From: a virus
Strand: one strand, 5' to 3'
IMG/VR virus record: IMGVR_UViG_3300047476_000395
Location: 1 to 22,359 of that record
Length of the DNA stretch: 22,359 nt
Shown here piece by piece: positions 2,484-20,733 of this stretch. The notes under the pieces were generated by a model. It did no database searches. It had not been told where the DNA came from and was given only the letters and a program-made list of their open reading frames with translations. How positions within the stretch are numbered: position 1 is the stretch's first letter; the number at the start of each line of letters is the position of its first letter. The translations under genes and the position numbers were made by a program.

Positions 2484-3428
2484 TTATAATCCTAAAAATC
2501 CGCCAACTTTAGAACCAATGCCGCCAAATAATGTACCTGGACTTGCACCACCGATAGCACCACCTAATCCCATTAAGCCACCCATAAAGTTTGCATTAGC
2601 TTGCTGCCCTGCGTTATAACTACCCATTGCAGAATTAAAACCAGCTTGACCTGCACCCATTAAATCAGGTGCTGAATAATTTTGTTGTTGAACAGGATTT
2701 ACATAACTAGGATTTTGAACTTGATTGCCAGTACGCAATGAATTAATAATGTTCATTGGTGATGTTAAGTTATAAGCAGCTTGGTTAAATCCTTGTTGAT
2801 TAGCTTGCAACCCTGTGTTCATGCCACCAACAATAGCGCTAGTCATTTTATCATTTTGTGCTTGGTCAAATGATCGTCTAGCGTTCATGTAAGCTTCACT
2901 ACCTGGAGCAATACCTTGATTAGCCAATTTGTTTTCAAAAGAAGCTGTTTCTTGGGCAATTTGAGGTTGTAATCTACGCATAATAGCGTCAGAATAAACT
3001 TCACCAGGATTAATGCCTGTTTGAGCTAATTGAGATTGGTCAACAGTAGGATTAGCCATTACATTAGTGTAATTAGCCAAACCTGATTGAGCGCCTGTAA
3101 GCATGTCTGATGACAATGCTGTGTTTTGATTTAAAAGTTTTTGTTGCTCTGGGCTTAATACTTGAGTTGCAGTGTAAGTAGGATTGCCGTATTGGTCAGT
3201 GCCTGATTGCGTGTAATTTAAATTACCATAAGGTGTAACTTGATTAACACGGTTAGCTGCAAGCGTTTCACGGTTAATATCTCTTTGCATTTGACTTTGT
3301 TCTCGAGCCAAAGCAGAGTAGTCAGGAGTATCAGGTTCATCACCTTTACCACCACCGCCACCATTAGCCATAGACTTAAATGGGTCACGTACGCCTTGCA
3401 TACGCAATTGAACAAATTTACCTAGCAT
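2484..3428 (-). CDS. Gln/Asn/Gly-rich virion protein, probable internal or tail-tip component (314 aa)
   Basis: 314 residues. A GGGGGKGDEPDTPDYSALAREQ segment near the N-terminus is followed by a long Gln/Asn/Ala-rich region with NQVTPYGNLNYTQSGTDQYG, and a Gly-rich hydrophobic C-terminus (GGLMGLGGAIGG, then GTLFGGIGSKVGGFLGL) that could insert in or lie along a membrane. Similar proteins occur next to ejection proteins in short-tailed phages, usually annotated as hypothetical. The start at 3428 is chosen because GGAG lies about 6-7 bases upstream; it overlaps the end of the acetyltransferase gene by 11 bases. The Met at residue 20 (MANGGGGGKG) is an alternative without a better ribosome site. 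The function is inferred only from position and composition. Confidence 0.85.
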   Translation of the reverse strand: MLGKFVQLRMQGVRDPFKSMANGGGGGKGDEPDTPDYSALAREQSQMQRDINRETLAANRVNQVTPYGNLNYTQSGTDQYGNPTYTATQVLSPEQQKLLNQNTALSSDMLTGAQSGLANYTNVMANPTVDQSQLAQTGINPGEVYSDAIMRRLQPQIAQETASFENKLANQGIAPGSEAYMNARRSFDQAQNDKMTSAIVGGMNTGLQANQQGFNQAAYNLTSPMNIINSLRTGNQVQNPSYVNPVQQQNYSAPDLMGAGQAGFNSAMGSYNAGQQANANFMGGLMGLGGAIGGASPGTLFGGIGSKVGGFLGL

Positions 3429-3834
3429 ATCTCTCTCCGAGCTTTAAAAAGCGACAATCTTCAGGTCGCATAACATAAACAATACCATCTCCGTTAGGGA
3501 AATAATCTTTTAACCTTGCTTCTTCTTTAAAACCCAAATGTAGATTTAGGCGTTGTGCGTTTGAATTAGCTGTTGAAACTAAACCTCTTAAAACTTTAAC
3601 TTTAAGCTTGTTAAATGGATAATCAAAGGCAGCCCAATAAAACTTTCTTGAAACTTTTCTAGGATTATCTATTCTTGAATGAATACTAATTGATGATCCT
3701 GTATAACCGTCATACATAACACCAGCAATTATTTCATCATCTTTCATTTGCCCTATAGCTTGGCTAATATGGGTCCAAGTTCCACCAGCCTTTTCGCACA
3801 CCCAGTGGCCAATAGGTTCACCTTGATAAATCAT
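3418..3834 (-). CDS. GNAT-family N-acetyltransferase
   Basis: A 138-residue protein of the usual size for a single GNAT domain. The C-terminal half shows the family signature: a beta strand (KVKVLRGLVSTAN), then NSNAQRLNLHLGFKEEARL (residues 90-108), then GDGIVYVMRPEDCRF. This is the classic arrangement of the acetyl-CoA-binding helix, the GF turn and the final strands. The family moves an acetyl group from acetyl-CoA to an amine; the acceptor here is unknown. The gene lies between the beta-propeller-like tail gene (TAATG overlap at 3834-3836) and a virion gene (11-base overlap), so it is made with late structural proteins. It may modify a virion or host protein late in infection, or act as a virion component that has lost catalysis. 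The family call is strong; the role is open. Confidence 0.85.
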   Translation of the reverse strand: MIYQGEPIGHWVCEKAGGTWTHISQAIGQMKDDEIIAGVMYDGYTGSSISIHSRIDNPRKVSRKFYWAAFDYPFNKLKVKVLRGLVSTANSNAQRLNLHLGFKEEARLKDYFPNGDGIVYVMRPEDCRFLKLGERYAR

Positions 3835-5354
3835 TACAAGATACCACCTGATTCAATAACAATGTCTGTAGAAACCCAACGCACGTCTAACAAGTTACTT
3901 ACCGCTTTAACTACAGGAGCGCCAAAATAACCAACGCCATTTAAGCCTTGCCAATATTGGAAGGTATTAACACCACCGCCCCACGTTGCATTGTCCCATA
4001 CACCTGTATCCCATTTAGAATACTGAATAGGTGTGTATGTTAAAGGTGTTGTAGTGTCAGTTAATGTAAAGTCAATGTTAATACCAGCATACACAGCAGG
4101 CGCACCGTCAGCTCTAAAGATAGGGCGTGACATAGTAAAGCGTTTTAATTGACCACCACGTTGGAAGTTGTTAAATGCTTGAATTGCAAAAGCTGTAATG
4201 TTTAAACCGTTATCAGCTTGACTGTTCCATGCTCTAGCGACATAACCATCGCCACCAAAGTAAGGCTCATCATTAAACATCTCAAAGCAGTTAGCGTTCC
4301 AACCTGTGTAGTTACACCATGAACCTGTAATTGTGTTCATTGCATATTGATTTTGCTCGGAACCTTCTTTTGTAGGTACATTTAACCATAACTGGTTGAT
4401 TGTAGGTACATACATTAACTGCCAGCCAAAATTACCTGCATAATTGGTTACTGCTTGACTAATTGCATATTGAATTTTGTCAGTTAAAGCAACTCTAGGT
4501 TGTACACGTGATGATTGCAAAGCACCTGATAATGGCACAACACCATCTTGCGTAATAAGTAAAATATCACCAGCATATTTGTACATGCTTCTAGCACCTA
4601 CTGGCGCACCAATGTCCCACACGCCTACCATGGCCCATGTAGCAGCAGTAGCAGGGTCTGTACCTTGGAATACAATTACCTGGCCTTGGTCAGTAATAAT
4701 TACATAATGATCGTTTACGCCATTACCTGCATCAATGGTCCAAGTGCCGTGAGCAACAATCTCACCGCCTTTGGTCATGTAAGCAGATACGTCAATTGCG
4801 TTAGCAGCACCACCAATAGATTGTGTTGGCAAATACCAAGTTTTTAATGAATTATCTTGAATAAAAAACAAGCGATTCATGTAAAGCACAGGGCTATTAA
4901 GACTTGTTGCAGTTACACCTGTTACAGAAATATTAGCCCATGTAGAACCATTGTAAACTTGAGGTGTGTCAACAGCATTAGCCATAACTAAATAATTGCC
5001 ACCAGCAGTAGCAATGTTAGCGTATTGCCAACGTGAATTAGTCAAACCTGTTTTAACAGCAGAACCTACTGGACCTGTTGCTGATACGTCATAAACGCTG
5101 CCACTTGCAATAGCAAACAACTTATTGACGTTACCACCAGAGTAAGCCATTAAAGTTTCTACTTGCCCTGTAATGCCTGTTGCTTGATTTGTATAGCCAC
5201 TTCTTAAAACACACTCTGTTGTAGCAGGAAACCAATTGGTCAACACTACTGCATCTAAAGGTGACATTGCAGAAAGTGAATCTCTAGCGTTCCAACCACC
5301 TGTAGGACACGGCAATGATATTGGCTGTGCTACATTTCTTTTAGCTCTTGCCAT
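3834..5354 (-). CDS. Beta-propeller-like tail / DNA-stabilisation protein (P22 gp10-like position)
   Basis: 506 residues, rich in beta strands, Gly, Asn, Thr and Trp, with no membrane segment. The N-terminus carries PCPTGGWNARDSLSAMSP, then DAVVLTNWFPATTECVLRSGY. This start (GGWN-R, P-DAV-L-NWFP, LR-GY) is well known in podovirus proteins of about 500-700 residues annotated as structural or packaged-DNA stabilisation proteins. The rest reads as repeated strands (LFAIASGSVYDVS, WQYANIATAGGNYLVMAN, LYMNRLFFIQDNSLKTWYL), fitting a propeller. It probably sits below the adaptor in the tail stub and helps to hold DNA in the head. GGAG lies 7 bases before the ATG, inside the end of the adaptor gene; the stop overlaps the acetyltransferase start. 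The structural role is fairly sure; equivalence to gp10 is inferred. Confidence 0.88.
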   Translation of the reverse strand: MARAKRNVAQPISLPCPTGGWNARDSLSAMSPLDAVVLTNWFPATTECVLRSGYTNQATGITGQVETLMAYSGGNVNKLFAIASGSVYDVSATGPVGSAVKTGLTNSRWQYANIATAGGNYLVMANAVDTPQVYNGSTWANISVTGVTATSLNSPVLYMNRLFFIQDNSLKTWYLPTQSIGGAANAIDVSAYMTKGGEIVAHGTWTIDAGNGVNDHYVIITDQGQVIVFQGTDPATAATWAMVGVWDIGAPVGARSMYKYAGDILLITQDGVVPLSGALQSSRVQPRVALTDKIQYAISQAVTNYAGNFGWQLMYVPTINQLWLNVPTKEGSEQNQYAMNTITGSWCNYTGWNANCFEMFNDEPYFGGDGYVARAWNSQADNGLNITAFAIQAFNNFQRGGQLKRFTMSRPIFRADGAPAVYAGINIDFTLTDTTTPLTYTPIQYSKWDTGVWDNATWGGGVNTFQYWQGLNGVGYFGAPVVKAVSNLLDVRWVSTDIVIESGGIL

Positions 5355-16463: not shown

Positions 16464-17798
16464 TTAAATCCTTTTTTGTTGTTTGGAAGGCTGTGCCGAC
16501 CATAGTTCGTTGAGGGTAACATCAGTCTGACCGACCATGATTCCTCGAATTGGTTTATCTTCTAAATCTTCTGGCTTAACTTCTTCACGCCAGTTAATAG
16601 CTACATAACGGAAGGCATCAGAGGCATGAGATGTCCAATCGTGTCGAGGCTTGTCCCTAAACTGTTTCTTGTCCTCATCCCATTCACGTTGATATTGTTT
16701 CAACGCTTCAAGACCTTCAGAACAACGCTCTCTATCAAACCACACTCTTGGCATCATCTGACGAGCAGCTTGAATACCATCTTGCATAGAAAGACTAGGA
16801 GTAATCGCCATCTTTTTAATGTCTAGGTGTTCAGCTAACATCTCAATCACTGATTTGCCACCAGAGGCTAATGTTTTAGCTCTAGCGTCATGTGGTAAGT
16901 AATGTGTTTTGTATTTGTAAGGCTTGCTCAATACTTGAGCTGCATAATGATCAATAGACTTGCCACTAGCAGCATAGTAATCAATGAGATGAACTTCACC
17001 ATGTACGACTTGGTAGAACCAAATAGATGTATCATCAGAGTAGCCCAAGTCCCAAGCAGTAAATACATCGGTATATCTATCATATTCAACACCAGTAATT
17101 CTGCCTTCTTGTTCAGCTTGATATAGTTCACGACCCCAAATTGCCCCTGGTATGGCAGCATCAAAATCACATAGCATTTCTTGACGCCAGGCATCCTCTG
17201 ATAACTCGTCCATCATGGAGTTCATTTCATCTTGGTCTAATATGCCAGATGTGTCAGCAGATACCTTTAGCGTGAACCAAGTGTCATTGTTAAGAGCTTT
17301 GTTATACGCTTCCCAAAACTGGTTGCGACCCTTTGGAGTACCAATGATGATTGCTTTACCTTTTCGGTCAGCCAGTGCAGGACGAATAATGTATTTGAAC
17401 ACATTGCCTCGCCAATCACCGTACTCATCGCAAATAATAGAATCAAAAAAAAGCCCACGGAGAGCATCAGCATTATCAGCGCCATACAACTGTATTCTAG
17501 CGCCATTCGCAAAATCGATACGTAGTTCGCTTTCGTTTGCAACTGCACCATCAATCACCCTTGAGAAGTATTTAAAGTAATCCCAAGCAATAGATTTAGC
17601 TTGCTTGTAGAAAGGAGCAATGTAAGCGCCACGGAAGTTTGAGCGTTCAGATGTAATAGCATCTCTTATGAGATTGTTTACGCAAGCAACAGTTTTGCCT
17701 GCACGTCTATGCGCTACTACAACCTTCCAACGCTTATCACTATTATGCAATGGCATAAAAGCATCACGTGGCTTATATGGAATAGTTACTTTTCCCAT
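16464..17798 (-). CDS. terL: Terminase large subunit (ATPase and nuclease)
   Basis: 444 residues with all expected motifs. ATPase: Walker A AHRRAGKT (29-36), Walker B IICDE (121-125, acid Glu125) and coupling motif IIGTPKG (151-157). Nuclease (RNase H-like) half: TAWDLGYSDDTSIW (Asp250), LPHDARAK (Asp304) and SHASDAFRY (Asp394), the three acidic positions that bind metal. It cuts concatemeric DNA and drives it into the procapsid through the portal. The start overlaps the end of the small-subunit gene by 13 bases and lacks a strong ribosome site, so translation is probably coupled. Length and motif order are normal for the family; nothing appears truncated. Confidence 0.96.
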   Translation of the reverse strand: MGKVTIPYKPRDAFMPLHNSDKRWKVVVAHRRAGKTVACVNNLIRDAITSERSNFRGAYIAPFYKQAKSIAWDYFKYFSRVIDGAVANESELRIDFANGARIQLYGADNADALRGLFFDSIICDEYGDWRGNVFKYIIRPALADRKGKAIIIGTPKGRNQFWEAYNKALNNDTWFTLKVSADTSGILDQDEMNSMMDELSEDAWRQEMLCDFDAAIPGAIWGRELYQAEQEGRITGVEYDRYTDVFTAWDLGYSDDTSIWFYQVVHGEVHLIDYYAASGKSIDHYAAQVLSKPYKYKTHYLPHDARAKTLASGGKSVIEMLAEHLDIKKMAITPSLSMQDGIQAARQMMPRVWFDRERCSEGLEALKQYQREWDEDKKQFRDKPRHDWTSHASDAFRYVAINWREEVKPEDLEDKPIRGIMVGQTDVTLNELWSAQPSKQQKRI

Positions 17799-18055
17799 GT
17801 GTATATATTCACATCAGTAACCATGTCAGTCGTTTGCTCAATAGATTGCATAGGCTTGCCTTCTAATCTATCGCCTATCTCTTTTAAAGCAGACATGTCA
17901 CCTTCTAGTGCTTTTAGTATTAATGCTTGTACTAATTTAGACAAGTGTTCGCCCTGCACGATTTCTTTACGGAGAGCGTCAGACCACATCTTGCCTTTTA
18001 CAGCGTTCTGATTACCTTTAGGCGCTCCCCCAAGAGTGTTCTTGGTATTAGCCAT
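17786..18055 (-). CDS. Terminase small subunit-like protein (89 aa)
   Basis: 89 residues, immediately upstream of and overlapping the large subunit gene. The start (GGAPKGNQNAVKGKMW) is Gly/Lys/Asn-rich like the N-terminus of many short phage DNA-binding proteins annotated as small terminase or DUF5681-type. The second half has a helical pattern (LVQALILKALEGDMSALKEI, then GDRLEGKPMQSIEQ) often seen in that group. It would recognise the packaging site and recruit the large subunit. The call rests on position and these patterns; it is shorter than typical TerS proteins. The upstream AGG is weak. Confidence 0.78.
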   Translation of the reverse strand: MANTKNTLGGAPKGNQNAVKGKMWSDALRKEIVQGEHLSKLVQALILKALEGDMSALKEIGDRLEGKPMQSIEQTTDMVTDVNIYTWEK

Positions 18056-18483: not shown

Positions 18484-18645
18484 TTATTTCTCCATCAAAG
18501 CCATTGCTAGCTTCTTTGGGTCTTTCTTTACACCCTCACTAGCCATTTGTTTAGCTTTATCTTGTGGAATACCTACACGCTTTGCTATAGACGGATCATG
18601 GGCAGCAGCTTGAAACAATCTGTGTTGAGCAGCAGTCCACGGCAT
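18484..18645 (-). CDS. 53-residue conserved phage protein, first gene of the late block
   Basis: An open frame of 53 residues: MPWTAAQHRLFQAAAHDPSI, then AKRVGIPQDKAKQMASEGVK and a Lys-rich end (KDPKKLAMALMEK). I know this type (PWTAAQHRLF followed by a GIPQ-KA-QMASEG segment) from short proteins near phage terminase genes. A good ribosome site (AAGGA, 6 bases before the ATG) and the one-base spacing to the next ATG support it. Function unknown; it looks like a small helical protein, perhaps DNA- or protein-binding. Confidence 0.8.
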   Translation of the reverse strand: MPWTAAQHRLFQAAAHDPSIAKRVGIPQDKAKQMASEGVKKDPKKLAMALMEK

Positions 18646-18768: not shown

Positions 18769-18799
18769 AAAAAAAAGCCAAGACGTTTTAAGCCCTGGC
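18769..18799 (-). terminator. Rho-independent terminator between early and late blocks
   Basis: On the minus strand: GCCAGG, 11 bases, CTTGGC (six pairs with one G-T), then eight T (18776-18769). It would stop early transcription after the 108-residue gene and also stop a transcript started at the extended -10 box 50 bases earlier. There is no T-run in the plus direction, so it acts on the minus strand only. Confidence 0.8.
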
Positions 18800-18844
18800 C
18801 ATAATGCTACTTGGAGGTAAGCATACTGATATAATGAAACGTAT
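18769..18844 (-). ncRNA. Candidate short leader RNA (about 76 nt), lambda 6S RNA-like
   Basis: If the extended -10 box at 18852-18860 is used, the start would be near A18844 and the end at the T-run at 18769, giving about 76 nt. It has a first hairpin (18804-18824): ATGCT/AGCAT plus AC/GT with one bulged T, whose top exposes CCUCC, the complement of a GGAGG ribosome site. The second hairpin is the terminator. The layout, directly after a Q-like gene and before the late genes, matches the lambda pR'-6S RNA-tR' module. Without expression data this stays a prediction. Confidence 0.4.
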
Positions 18845-18851
18845 AGACGCA

Positions 18852-18860
18852 ATTATACCA
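18852..18860 (-). promoter_or_regulatory. Extended -10 promoter (TGGTATAAT), candidate pR'-type late promoter
   Basis: Minus strand TGGTATAAT is a perfect TATAAT with the TGn extension, which can work without a good -35; the hexamer at the right distance (TGTGGT) is indeed poor. A start at A18844 would be seven bases after the box. The CATTAT at +9 to +14 of the transcript resembles a second -10 and could give a sigma-dependent pause as in lambda pR'. Confidence 0.5.
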
Positions 18861-18918
18861 ACGATTAGGATATTACCACATTTTTTCTCTTTTGGGAACC
18901 CCCTTTTGCAAATATATT

Positions 18919-19245
18919 TTAATGTAAGTTTCTTTCAGGTAATCTTTTCTGTAACATAACTAATGCTGTATCATAAGATTGCTGCAATAACATATCATTT
19001 AACATAGATTTTTGACCAAGATAGATAATATATATAGCGTTTTTAGGTAACATAGGTAAGTCATCAATTACTTGATCTACAGTACGTGCTGCATCATAGT
19101 CCATATCATCTTCCATTTCTTCAAAAGAAGTTATGCCCCCTGTATTAAATCCTGACGATCTACCTTTAAAACCAAGTTTTTCTTTATCTTGCTTCATGTA
19201 ATCACGCCATAAATCTAAATAATATTGAACTTTGCCTATATCCAT
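18919..19245 (-). CDS. Putative late-gene regulator in Q position (108 aa)
   Basis: 108 residues. The first 30 are helical and basic (DLWRDYMKQDKEKLGFKGRS), then SSGFNTGGITSFEEMEDDMD, then a helical part from 52 on (ARTVDQVIDDLPMLPKNAIY, IIYLGQK, SYDTALVMLQKRLPE) with the spacing of a sigma-region-4-like helix-turn-helix, as in small antitermination or late-activator proteins (Q, ArpU, RinA types). It is the last early gene, directly after RusA (TAATG) and directly before an extended -10 promoter and terminator; in lambdoid phages this place belongs to Q. I do not recognise it as a named family with certainty, so Q-like is inferred from context and helix pattern. AGGA stands nine bases before the ATG. 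Confidence 0.85.
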   Translation of the reverse strand: MDIGKVQYYLDLWRDYMKQDKEKLGFKGRSSGFNTGGITSFEEMEDDMDYDAARTVDQVIDDLPMLPKNAIYIIYLGQKSMLNDMLLQQSYDTALVMLQKRLPERNLH

Positions 19246-19634
19246 TAAATATAATCCTGATAGTTTTCTAGCATTTGACCTACTTGAGTATGTTCTACAA
19301 TGACAACCTTTACCTGACCGCCTTTAACTTGAGGTCTACGTACTAACCAAATAAAGTCAATCTGTTCATCATCCTCAAATACTCCAGCTTCCATTAAAGC
19401 GTCAGTAGTCTGTTTTTCATAGTTGCCAATATCACGACGACGTTTATCAGGTGGATAAAAAGCATAAAAGATTGCAAGACGTACATCACCTTTAATTTTG
19501 GCATGTTTCTCAATAACAATCTCTTGCACTTTTTCCCTAAATTGCCTTGTTTGCTTAGACATAAACTTTCTACCACTACCATAGTGATGAGAATGGTTTG
19601 TGCTAGGAGCCCAAGGTAGTGTAAGACTTATCAT
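19245..19634 (-). CDS. rusA: RusA-family Holliday-junction resolvase
   Basis: 129 residues, the normal size. The family core is clear: N-terminal strand ISLTLPWAPSTNHSHHYGSG, then the catalytic block PPDKRRRDIGNYEKQTTDAL (61-80) and EAGVFEDDEQID (82-93), and the closing GGQVKVVIVE strand. By comparison with E. coli RusA, Asp68, Lys74 and Asp89 match D70, K76 and D91, but the place of D72 holds Gly70. The enzyme is a dimer that cuts four-way DNA junctions, clearing branched DNA before packaging. The 57-residue gene upstream overlaps its start by 32 bases. The ribosome site is weak, so it probably depends on coupling. Confidence 0.93.
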   Translation of the reverse strand: MISLTLPWAPSTNHSHHYGSGRKFMSKQTRQFREKVQEIVIEKHAKIKGDVRLAIFYAFYPPDKRRRDIGNYEKQTTDALMEAGVFEDDEQIDFIWLVRRPQVKGGQVKVVIVEHTQVGQMLENYQDYI

Positions 19635-19776
19635 GTAGCTTTGCTTTCAATAATCTAATTTCAGGATGGTCATACTCACGTATAGTTTTATTATACAGTG
19701 TACGCAATGATAACCATGATGCGTATTCTCTTTCGTATCTTTCTCGCCAAAAAATTACTTCTTGCTCTAGTGTCAT
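19603..19776 (-). CDS. 57-residue small protein between DUF1364 and rusA
   Basis: Not recognised. The frame starts with an ATGA overlap with the stop of the preceding gene (ATG 19776-19774, TGA 19775-19773) and ends inside rusA. The product (MTLEQEVIFWRERYEREYAS, then WLSLRTLYNKTIREY and HPEIRLLKAKL) is a charged amphipathic helix pair. The exact four-base coupling and the filling of an otherwise empty 138-base gap support a real gene. A small binding partner of a neighbouring nuclease is possible but unproven. Confidence 0.65.
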   Translation of the reverse strand: MTLEQEVIFWRERYEREYASWLSLRTLYNKTIREYDHPEIRLLKAKLHDKSYTTLGS

Positions 19777-20066
19777 ATCAAACCAATCATATCGTGATCA
19801 AATAGATACCCTATTGTTTGTCTATGAGCTGTTTCCCACATGTCTTGACGCTCTTCTCGGCTTAAATTATTACCGTTATCAATTTCAAAATGACATGCTG
19901 CACACATAGCAGCAATTCTGTAGTCATGCGCTTTAATCCCTGTGCCTTTGCCGTCCATTTGCCTATTTGAATGAGCAGCTGCTACAGTTCCGTCTGATCT
20001 GCCACATACTTGACATGGCAATAATCTAACTTTTTCTAAAAGTTTTTTGTTTCGGTAGTTTGCCAT
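19773..20066 (-). CDS. DUF1364-like HNH/treble-clef zinc protein, putative nuclease (97 aa)
   Basis: 97 residues from the ATG at 20066 (GGGA just upstream); an in-frame GTG at 20075 is a weaker choice. Zinc ligands are clear: Cys18-x2-Cys21, His32 in AAAHSNRQMDGKGTGIKAHD, and Cys55-x2-Cys58-His59 followed by EIDNG. This is the pattern of the DUF1364 family found in the nin regions of lambdoid phages, a treble-clef or HNH-like fold thought to act on DNA. It overlaps the end of the upstream nuclease-like gene by 31 bases and couples by ATGA to the 57-residue gene. The family is fairly sure; cleavage activity is inferred. Confidence 0.85.
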   Translation of the reverse strand: MANYRNKKLLEKVRLLPCQVCGRSDGTVAAAHSNRQMDGKGTGIKAHDYRIAAMCAACHFEIDNGNNLSREERQDMWETAHRQTIGYLFDHDMIGLI

Positions 20067-20407
20067 TGATCCCACTTTACTAAATAATCTTTAAAAGATT
20101 CTACACTACTTCCTAATGCTGTACATGGTCCTTCAAAATTAACTTTAAAAAATTTATCTACAACCATACCATTGTCTGTGTTGCCCCATGCAATTAATAC
20201 TGTAAAGCTAGGGTTTTTAGATAAAAATCTTAATAGTAACTCTTGGCCATACATTGGCTTTTCATTTGGCCCACGCTTCCATTCACATATTAAAAATCTA
20301 TTGCCTGATCGCAATATCATGTCAATATCACTAGGTGATTTAGTACCAAACAATCCTTTTAGTTCGGTAAAATCAATATGTGCTGCATTAAGATTACGCA
20401 TTGACAT
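20036..20407 (-). CDS. Putative PD-(D/E)XK nuclease (123 aa)
   Basis: 123 residues. The visible motif set is PSDIDM (Asp27, Asp29), then a strand RFLICEWKRG (Glu42, Lys44), then GQELLLRFL (Gln55) and a hydrophobic strand FTVLIAW. Asp, a spacer of about a dozen residues, E-x-K and a following Gln is the fingerprint of the PD-(D/E)XK nuclease fold (Holliday-junction resolvases and VRR-NUC-like proteins are members). Substrate unknown. It lies between NinB and the DUF1364 gene in the recombination block. AGGA is six bases before the ATG and the gene starts two bases after the ninB stop. The fold call is by eye, so moderate. Confidence 0.8.
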   Translation of the reverse strand: MSMRNLNAAHIDFTELKGLFGTKSPSDIDMILRSGNRFLICEWKRGPNEKPMYGQELLLRFLSKNPSFTVLIAWGNTDNGMVVDKFFKVNFEGPCTALGSSVESFKDYLVKWDQWQTTETKNF

Positions 20408-20409
20408 AA

Positions 20410-20733
20410 TTAATCCTGTAAATAAATACCACGTTCAGCAGCAAAGTGTTCTACCTTTTCCATAAATGCATTAAGTTCTTCTACGCTTAAATCTGCTGTG
20501 CCACGTAATGAGTAAATAATTGTACCGTCAGAGCGTGGTGTTTCATTATACCCTAACCAACGGTCTTTCATTACAACCTTCCACCATTGTGGGTGATGCA
20601 ATAACTTGTCAGCAGCTAGTACCTTTTCAGATATAGCTTGAAATAACAAGTGCAAACGATTATTTTGAGGTAATGATCGTCTTGGACTTTGACCGCACGT
20701 AGGACATTTTTTCTGTTGGTTTTGTTGGCACAT
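20410..20733 (-). CDS. ninB: NinB (Orf) family recombination protein
   Basis: 107 residues. The NinB/Orf pattern is seen: RSLPQNNRLHLLFQAISEKV, then HPQWWKVVMKDRWLGYNETP, then STADLS-type TADLSVEELNAFMEKVEHFA and a last GIYLQD. Lambda Orf (NinB) binds single-stranded DNA and SSB and helps to load recombinase; a similar role is likely here. The N-terminus carries an extra Cys knuckle (Cys2, Cys10, Cys13; CPTCGQ), whose bases are also read in another frame by the preceding gene. GAGG stands about nine bases before the ATG. It lies in the usual place ahead of the nuclease genes. Confidence 0.88.
   Translation of the reverse strand: MCQQNQQKKCPTCGQSPRRSLPQNNRLHLLFQAISEKVLAADKLLHHPQWWKVVMKDRWLGYNETPRSDGTIIYSLRGTADLSVEELNAFMEKVEHFAAERGIYLQD

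Follow-up and report, generated by a model that had tools for sequence, protein, structure and literature searches.

Here we describe the junction between the early and late genes of a phage described as freshwater. The window, the whole stretch of DNA that was analyzed, is the 22,359-base IMG/VR virus record IMGVR_UViG_3300047476_000395, and its minus strand carries all recognized genes as well as the features described below. The early genes encode a helicase, NinB, an ORF, an HNH nuclease, a 57-aa ORF, RusA, and finally a 108-aa protein (18919–19245), whose reading frame is present as the initial annotation had it. The nin-like genes upstream of this last early gene, from RusA through the 57-aa ORF, the HNH nuclease and the ORF to NinB, occupy 19245–20733. 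The same strand then carries a promoter, a terminator and the late genes, so that the layout of a Q switch, with the Q gene closing the early operon, is present in the window. The first late gene past the terminator encodes 53 aa (18484–18645, PHROG 16759), and several relatives start similarly after their terminators. It is followed by a 136-aa ORF, the small (DUF5681-like) and large terminase subunits (16464–18055), which mark the start of the late operon, the portal, and the major head and tail proteins; the claim that late genes follow the terminator thus stands.

The order NinB, HNH, RusA, Q and then terminase parallels that of the E. coli prophage DLP12, in which ybcO-rusA-ylcG-quuD resembles the early order of the window. 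QuuD of DLP12 is a 21-type Q homologue, and a sequence search of the PDB with QuuD returns 21Q chains. Judged by eye, a RusA-like gene lies immediately upstream of Q in 6 of the 10 relatives checked. Further along the late operon, a 506-aa protein (3834–5354) matches a PHROG labelled "amidase" over almost its full length, though the label looks doubtful; an acyltransferase-like gene (3418–3834) adjoins it.

The 108-aa protein

By itself, the 108-aa protein matched nothing in Pfam or PHROG. A tblastn search with it returned Venkman gp37, annotated "antitermination-like protein", and a ctXG6705 protein annotated "phage antitermination protein Q". An IMG/VR profile scan then confirmed 105 relatives, 80 of which were retained, and two genome-contig scans for relatives returned no bacterial genome encoding the protein. 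Our literature search found no description of this Q family or its leader RNA. Within the family, weak matches to PF06530 were seen for 5/32 members (best E 0.0086) and to Sigma70_r4_2 for 6/32, and the G001 record matches PF06530 at E 9e-4 with 14.2 bits. The curated PF06530 cut-off of 26 bits is reached neither by the window protein nor by these relatives. When the family profile was run against 6,957 mostly unrelated ORFs together with eight 21Q-type proteins, the best non-family match was a 21Q-type protein, at a weak 9.0 bits (E 0.63), and hhalign of the family against 21Q-type proteins was likewise weak (probability 10%, E 0.003). The lambda Q family of Pfam was not matched by the window protein or 31 relatives, and a PDB sequence search with the family profile gave a single unrelated match.

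As modelled by AlphaFold2 (pLDDT 78), the window protein begins with an N-terminal helix, followed by a loop of poor prediction quality (residues 21–39) and a C-terminal helical domain. In VIA-align, all eight best rows for this model are sigma factors, mainly at region 4, and 21Q is not listed; Foldseek alone gave nothing with E below 2. For the relative L036, the two best PDB rows are chains of 21Q, 6p18_Q (Z 6.7, 88 residues aligned, model residues 1–108) and 6jnx_P (Z 6.4). All structure Z-scores are below 8, and values of 6–7 are modest; as far as a predicted model goes, the match of L036 to 21Q is modest in Z but specific. The initial annotation had suggested comparing the predicted structure with Q, ArpU and RinA. 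Here the L036 model best matches 21Q and the window model sigma region 4, and the protein family has no Pfam or PHROG match to the ArpU or RinA late regulators.

In 21Q, helix 1 packs on a sigma-region-4-like domain and the N-terminal part forms a ring (Shi et al., PMC6606751). Because the L036 model fits 21Q and its fold as described there, we call the 108-aa protein a distant 21Q-type protein, predicted to work like 21Q and lying outside PF06530 by Pfam's threshold. The sigma-region-4-like fold appears to be shared with 21Q, as is an aromatic pair in helix 1 (DLWRDYM in the window, ELWGAWV in 21Q), whereas 21Q is longer, at 162 aa, and the window protein is below the PF06530 cut-off. The protein was originally modelled on lambda; it instead resembles phage 21 Q (PF06530-like, with a sigma-region-4 fold).

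Predicted late promoter and pause element

Comparison with relatives places the late promoter of the window at 18898–18870. The -35 element reads TTCCCA (18893–18898), preceded by GGGGG, and the extended -10 consists of TGTGG and TAATAT (18870–18880, hexamer 18875–18870) after a 17-bp spacer. Relatives with the element have a promoter in this same place, usually with TTGACA, 17 bp and an extended -10, and the extended TG is found in 23 of 27 distinct elements. As TTCCCA-17-TAATAT sits at these positions, transcription is predicted to start near 18862, at a G (range about 18864–18861, from the distance to the -10 hexamer), giving by coordinates a terminated transcript of about 94 nt. In the window, GGGGGTTCCC (18894–18903) stands where the TTGACA -35 region is usual. 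As a wider motif in IMG/VR, its near-exact pattern is common only to the L006 group, and it may be the site of a regulator or simply a poor -35.

A pause element is predicted just downstream, at 18847–18861, where sequence conservation picks out a -10-like TATAAT (18857–18852) overlapping GG-N8-CG. This universal pause motif is perfect in the window and is overlapped by TGGTATAAT. Across the distinct elements, G-10, C-1 and G+1 are invariant (27/27) and G-11 is G in 22/27; the regex used for collection demanded GG and CG, so the 27/27 invariance is partly built in, with most elements first found by protein alone. The C-1 of the motif falls at about +13 to +18 among elements, with C18848 of the window at about +15, and the paused RNA 3' end is predicted at about +15 to +18. 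The overlapping hexamer has the consensus NATAGT; it is a perfect TATAAT in the window and is degenerate in a number of relatives (L012, for instance, has GACTTC). A -10-like pause within the initial transcribed region is a requirement of Q-type systems (PMC9371919), and PMC4604602 cites the G-10 Y-1 G+1 pause consensus. By its sequence, the window has such a -10-like element in its initial transcribed region, at which pausing of the Q type is predicted.

The same layout recurs after Q in relatives, running from TTGACA through 17 bp, an extended -10 (TGTGG-TAATAT or similar), 19–24 nt, GG-N8-CG-YC and a terminator into the late genes. Most relatives have a CUCC-containing segment between the GG-N8-CG-YC block and the terminator. 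An automated pattern scan of a redundant set found promoter, pause and terminator after 89/120 family Q genes, and EBPR podovirus 1 carries the same element just before TerS/TerL. In L009, L010 and L017, the element is kept further downstream, beyond extra sequence after Q. The added sequence includes ORFs in these three, and a methyltransferase-like ORF lies between Q and the late promoter element in L015. L004 has a different sequence downstream of Q, and its contig stops before any element. In the Venkman-like clade a Q-like protein is present and no recognizable promoter-pause-terminator element was found. The late genes of one phage, L314 (Methylophilales phage Venkman), are on the opposite strand.

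The window holds a single copy of the composite formed by an extended -10, the G-10/Y-1/G+1 pause motif and a terminator, and 0/100 first-order Markov shuffles hold one; the count describes rarity and is not an independent test, as the composite was defined after viewing relatives. On its own TGNTATAAT is not significant (3 in the window vs 1.7 expected). We also searched for 6-bp direct repeats, the Q-binding element of the 21 type. None above chance were found in 14/15 elements, and the same test finds them in the 21-type control SE10. Since only one molecule binds in the AlpA system (PMC9371919), the missing direct repeat in the window would fit a single Q-binding site as for AlpA, which is a possible arrangement here.

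Leader RNA and terminator

When the leader RNA is taken from the corrected start, its minimum free energy (MFE) fold has three hairpins, termed P1, P2 and P3. P1 (18826–18861) pairs the pause strand UUGGUAUAAU (5' arm, 18861–18852) with AUUAUAUCAG (3' arm, 18835–18826). Its stability exceeds that of dinucleotide shuffles in the window (z -3.3) and many of the relatives, but not in L045, L062, L029 or L035. P2 (18804–18824) exposes CUCC in its loop, and its stem covaries across 12 distinct hairpins, with a score of 0.50 vs 0.21 in shuffled sets and 0/500 shuffles reaching the observed value. P3 is the intrinsic terminator (18769–18800), tR'-like, with a stem at 18800–18776 and an 8-T tail. This is the hairpin and T8 terminator named in the initial annotation, recovered here by both terminator scan and folding; in the fold of an 82-nt stretch it has -18.8 kcal/mol (z -2.9), and UAAAA is conserved in the P3 loop region among relatives. 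When IMG/VR DNA was scanned with GGTATAGTTGCGTC, a few dozen elements came out complete, having P1, P2 and the terminator, and these stand clearly apart from chance matches in coding sequence.

Because P1 and P2 are missing from some relatives (L029, L032, EBPR), the core switch does not need them; both are additional features, conserved among some members of the family. Our guess is that P1 steadies the nascent 5' end or locks it in place, and that with P2 the terminated transcript can serve as a small RNA. A fuller version, which we consider rather unlikely, is that the terminated late leader is itself functional: P1 would lock nascent RNA in place behind the Q ring or else prevent backtracking, and the P2 CUCC loop would pair with Shine-Dalgarno sequences, making the leader a constitutive anti-Shine-Dalgarno small RNA until Q makes late mRNA. 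Rfam has no family for the leader RNA. The closest comparison is RF02278, a Betaproteobacteria toxic small RNA that also has a CUCC motif directly before a strong terminator. Membership was rejected, with 16.8 bits for the window and at most 20.8 for relatives against a gathering score of 50.

The leader might instead be mainly a phage small RNA (6S/isrK-like, its CUCC loop pairing with Shine-Dalgarno sequences), with read-through secondary or independent of the protein. The covariation of P2 around a conserved CUCC loop points this way, and IsrK (PMC4825925) provides a prophage precedent. Full-length RF02278 matches below threshold were found in 6/20 records, lying on the leader where checked (window, L012, L003, L011); however, all scores are 16–21 bits, and 13/14 control genomes also match. 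Several relatives also keep the rest of the element without P2, as noted above, and we regard this reading as improbable.

Two observations concern the relative L035. Just before the terminator, its leader contains UCACCUCCUUUA, a sequence resembling the anti-Shine-Dalgarno 3' end of 16S rRNA. At 146–227, the same phage contig, which carries the Q switch, matches the int-alpA RNA of Rfam with a score (40 bits) above gathering.

A probable 21Q-type late-gene switch

The locus is very likely a 21Q-type late-gene antitermination switch. The initial annotation had proposed a Q, late promoter and terminator switch with the 108-aa protein as antiterminator, and this is supported by annotated homologues, fold, synteny, and a cis element conserved beside the gene in dozens of divergent phage contigs. 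The sequence shows which components are present, how they are arranged and conserved, and that the fold is similar; from these we infer the pausing, loading, readthrough and ring mechanism. In the proposed sequence of events, the host sigma70-type promoter (18898–18870) would yield the RNA of roughly 94 nt, whose end is set by the terminator at 18769. While elongation is still at an early stage, RNA polymerase that has retained sigma would pause at the TATAAT-like element and universal pause motif (18861–18847). There the 108-aa protein, accumulated from the early operon, would load onto the polymerase, probably forming a ring at its RNA exit channel in the manner of 21Q. So modified, the enzyme would read through the terminator and go on to transcribe terS, terL and the structural genes.

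The position of the promoter was originally read differently, with TGGTATAAT (18860–18852) as an extended -10, a start near 18844, a 76-nt transcript and a sigma pause at CATTAT. The sequence is indeed present as a perfect extended -10 and could act alone as a promoter. In relatives, however, the aligned position, just downstream of the start, reads GTTGGACTTCG, GTAAGCAGAG, GGACAATT or GGATAGT, and the promoter about 18 bp upstream is retained; the start and length given above replace the earlier values. CATTAT (18836–18831) is not conserved and overlaps the 3' arm of P1, where it pairs with the pause strand. We therefore consider this placement quite improbable. Least probable of all is that the 108-aa protein binds DNA and activates the late promoter in the way of ArpU or RinA, with the terminator serving just as an insulator: proteins with a sigma-region-4-like HTH fold can activate promoters and the direct-repeat test found no Q-binding element, but a terminator-like T run lies directly after the promoter and before the late genes in all elements collected, near-consensus promoters should need no activator, L036 best matches 21Q over its whole chain, and ArpU and RinA have no Pfam match.

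The 21Q-type switch preferred here can be compared with three known systems. The closest is Q / pR' / tR' of phage 21 (6P18, 6JNX; PF06530), which shares a Q gene after RusA and nin-type genes, a late promoter, a pause element in the initial transcribed region, an intrinsic terminator and late genes. Unlike phage 21, the window is without a TGAGCA-type direct repeat and has a conserved universal pause motif and an extra CUCC hairpin in the leader. In the 21-type phages Pm34 and HK639, the pause strand also folds into a hairpin, analogous to P1, while in 21-type ST64T and SE10 it is the 5' arm of the terminator itself. The pause sequence is also the 5' arm of the terminator hairpin in L087, L091 and L092, phages with a 21-type Q whose leaders are very short (about 50 nt).

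Lambda Q / pR' / tR' / 6S RNA has circuit logic and predicted pause position in common with the window. The lambda pause lies near +16, and the lambda leader is longer than that of the window. The overall fold of lambda Q differs from that of 21Q (PMC6606751). The AlpA / PalpB / tB system of Pseudomonas aeruginosa resembles the proposed switch in that a Q-like antiterminator loads at a -10-like pause, followed by an intrinsic terminator (PMC9371919). AlpA controls a host cell-death operon, whereas the window switch would control phage late genes.

This reading extends 21-type late-gene antitermination, best known in enterobacterial phages, to a large group of phages from the environment, most of them unannotated. 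It further provides a strict signature for finding such switches from sequence, namely an extended -10, 19–24 nt, the GG-N8-CG pause motif and a terminator. The conserved structured leader is the part of the switch that merits experiments. Its covarying CUCC hairpin, together with a pause sequence that recurs as a hairpin arm, also in two 21-type phages, raises a testable question on the role of the late leader RNA.
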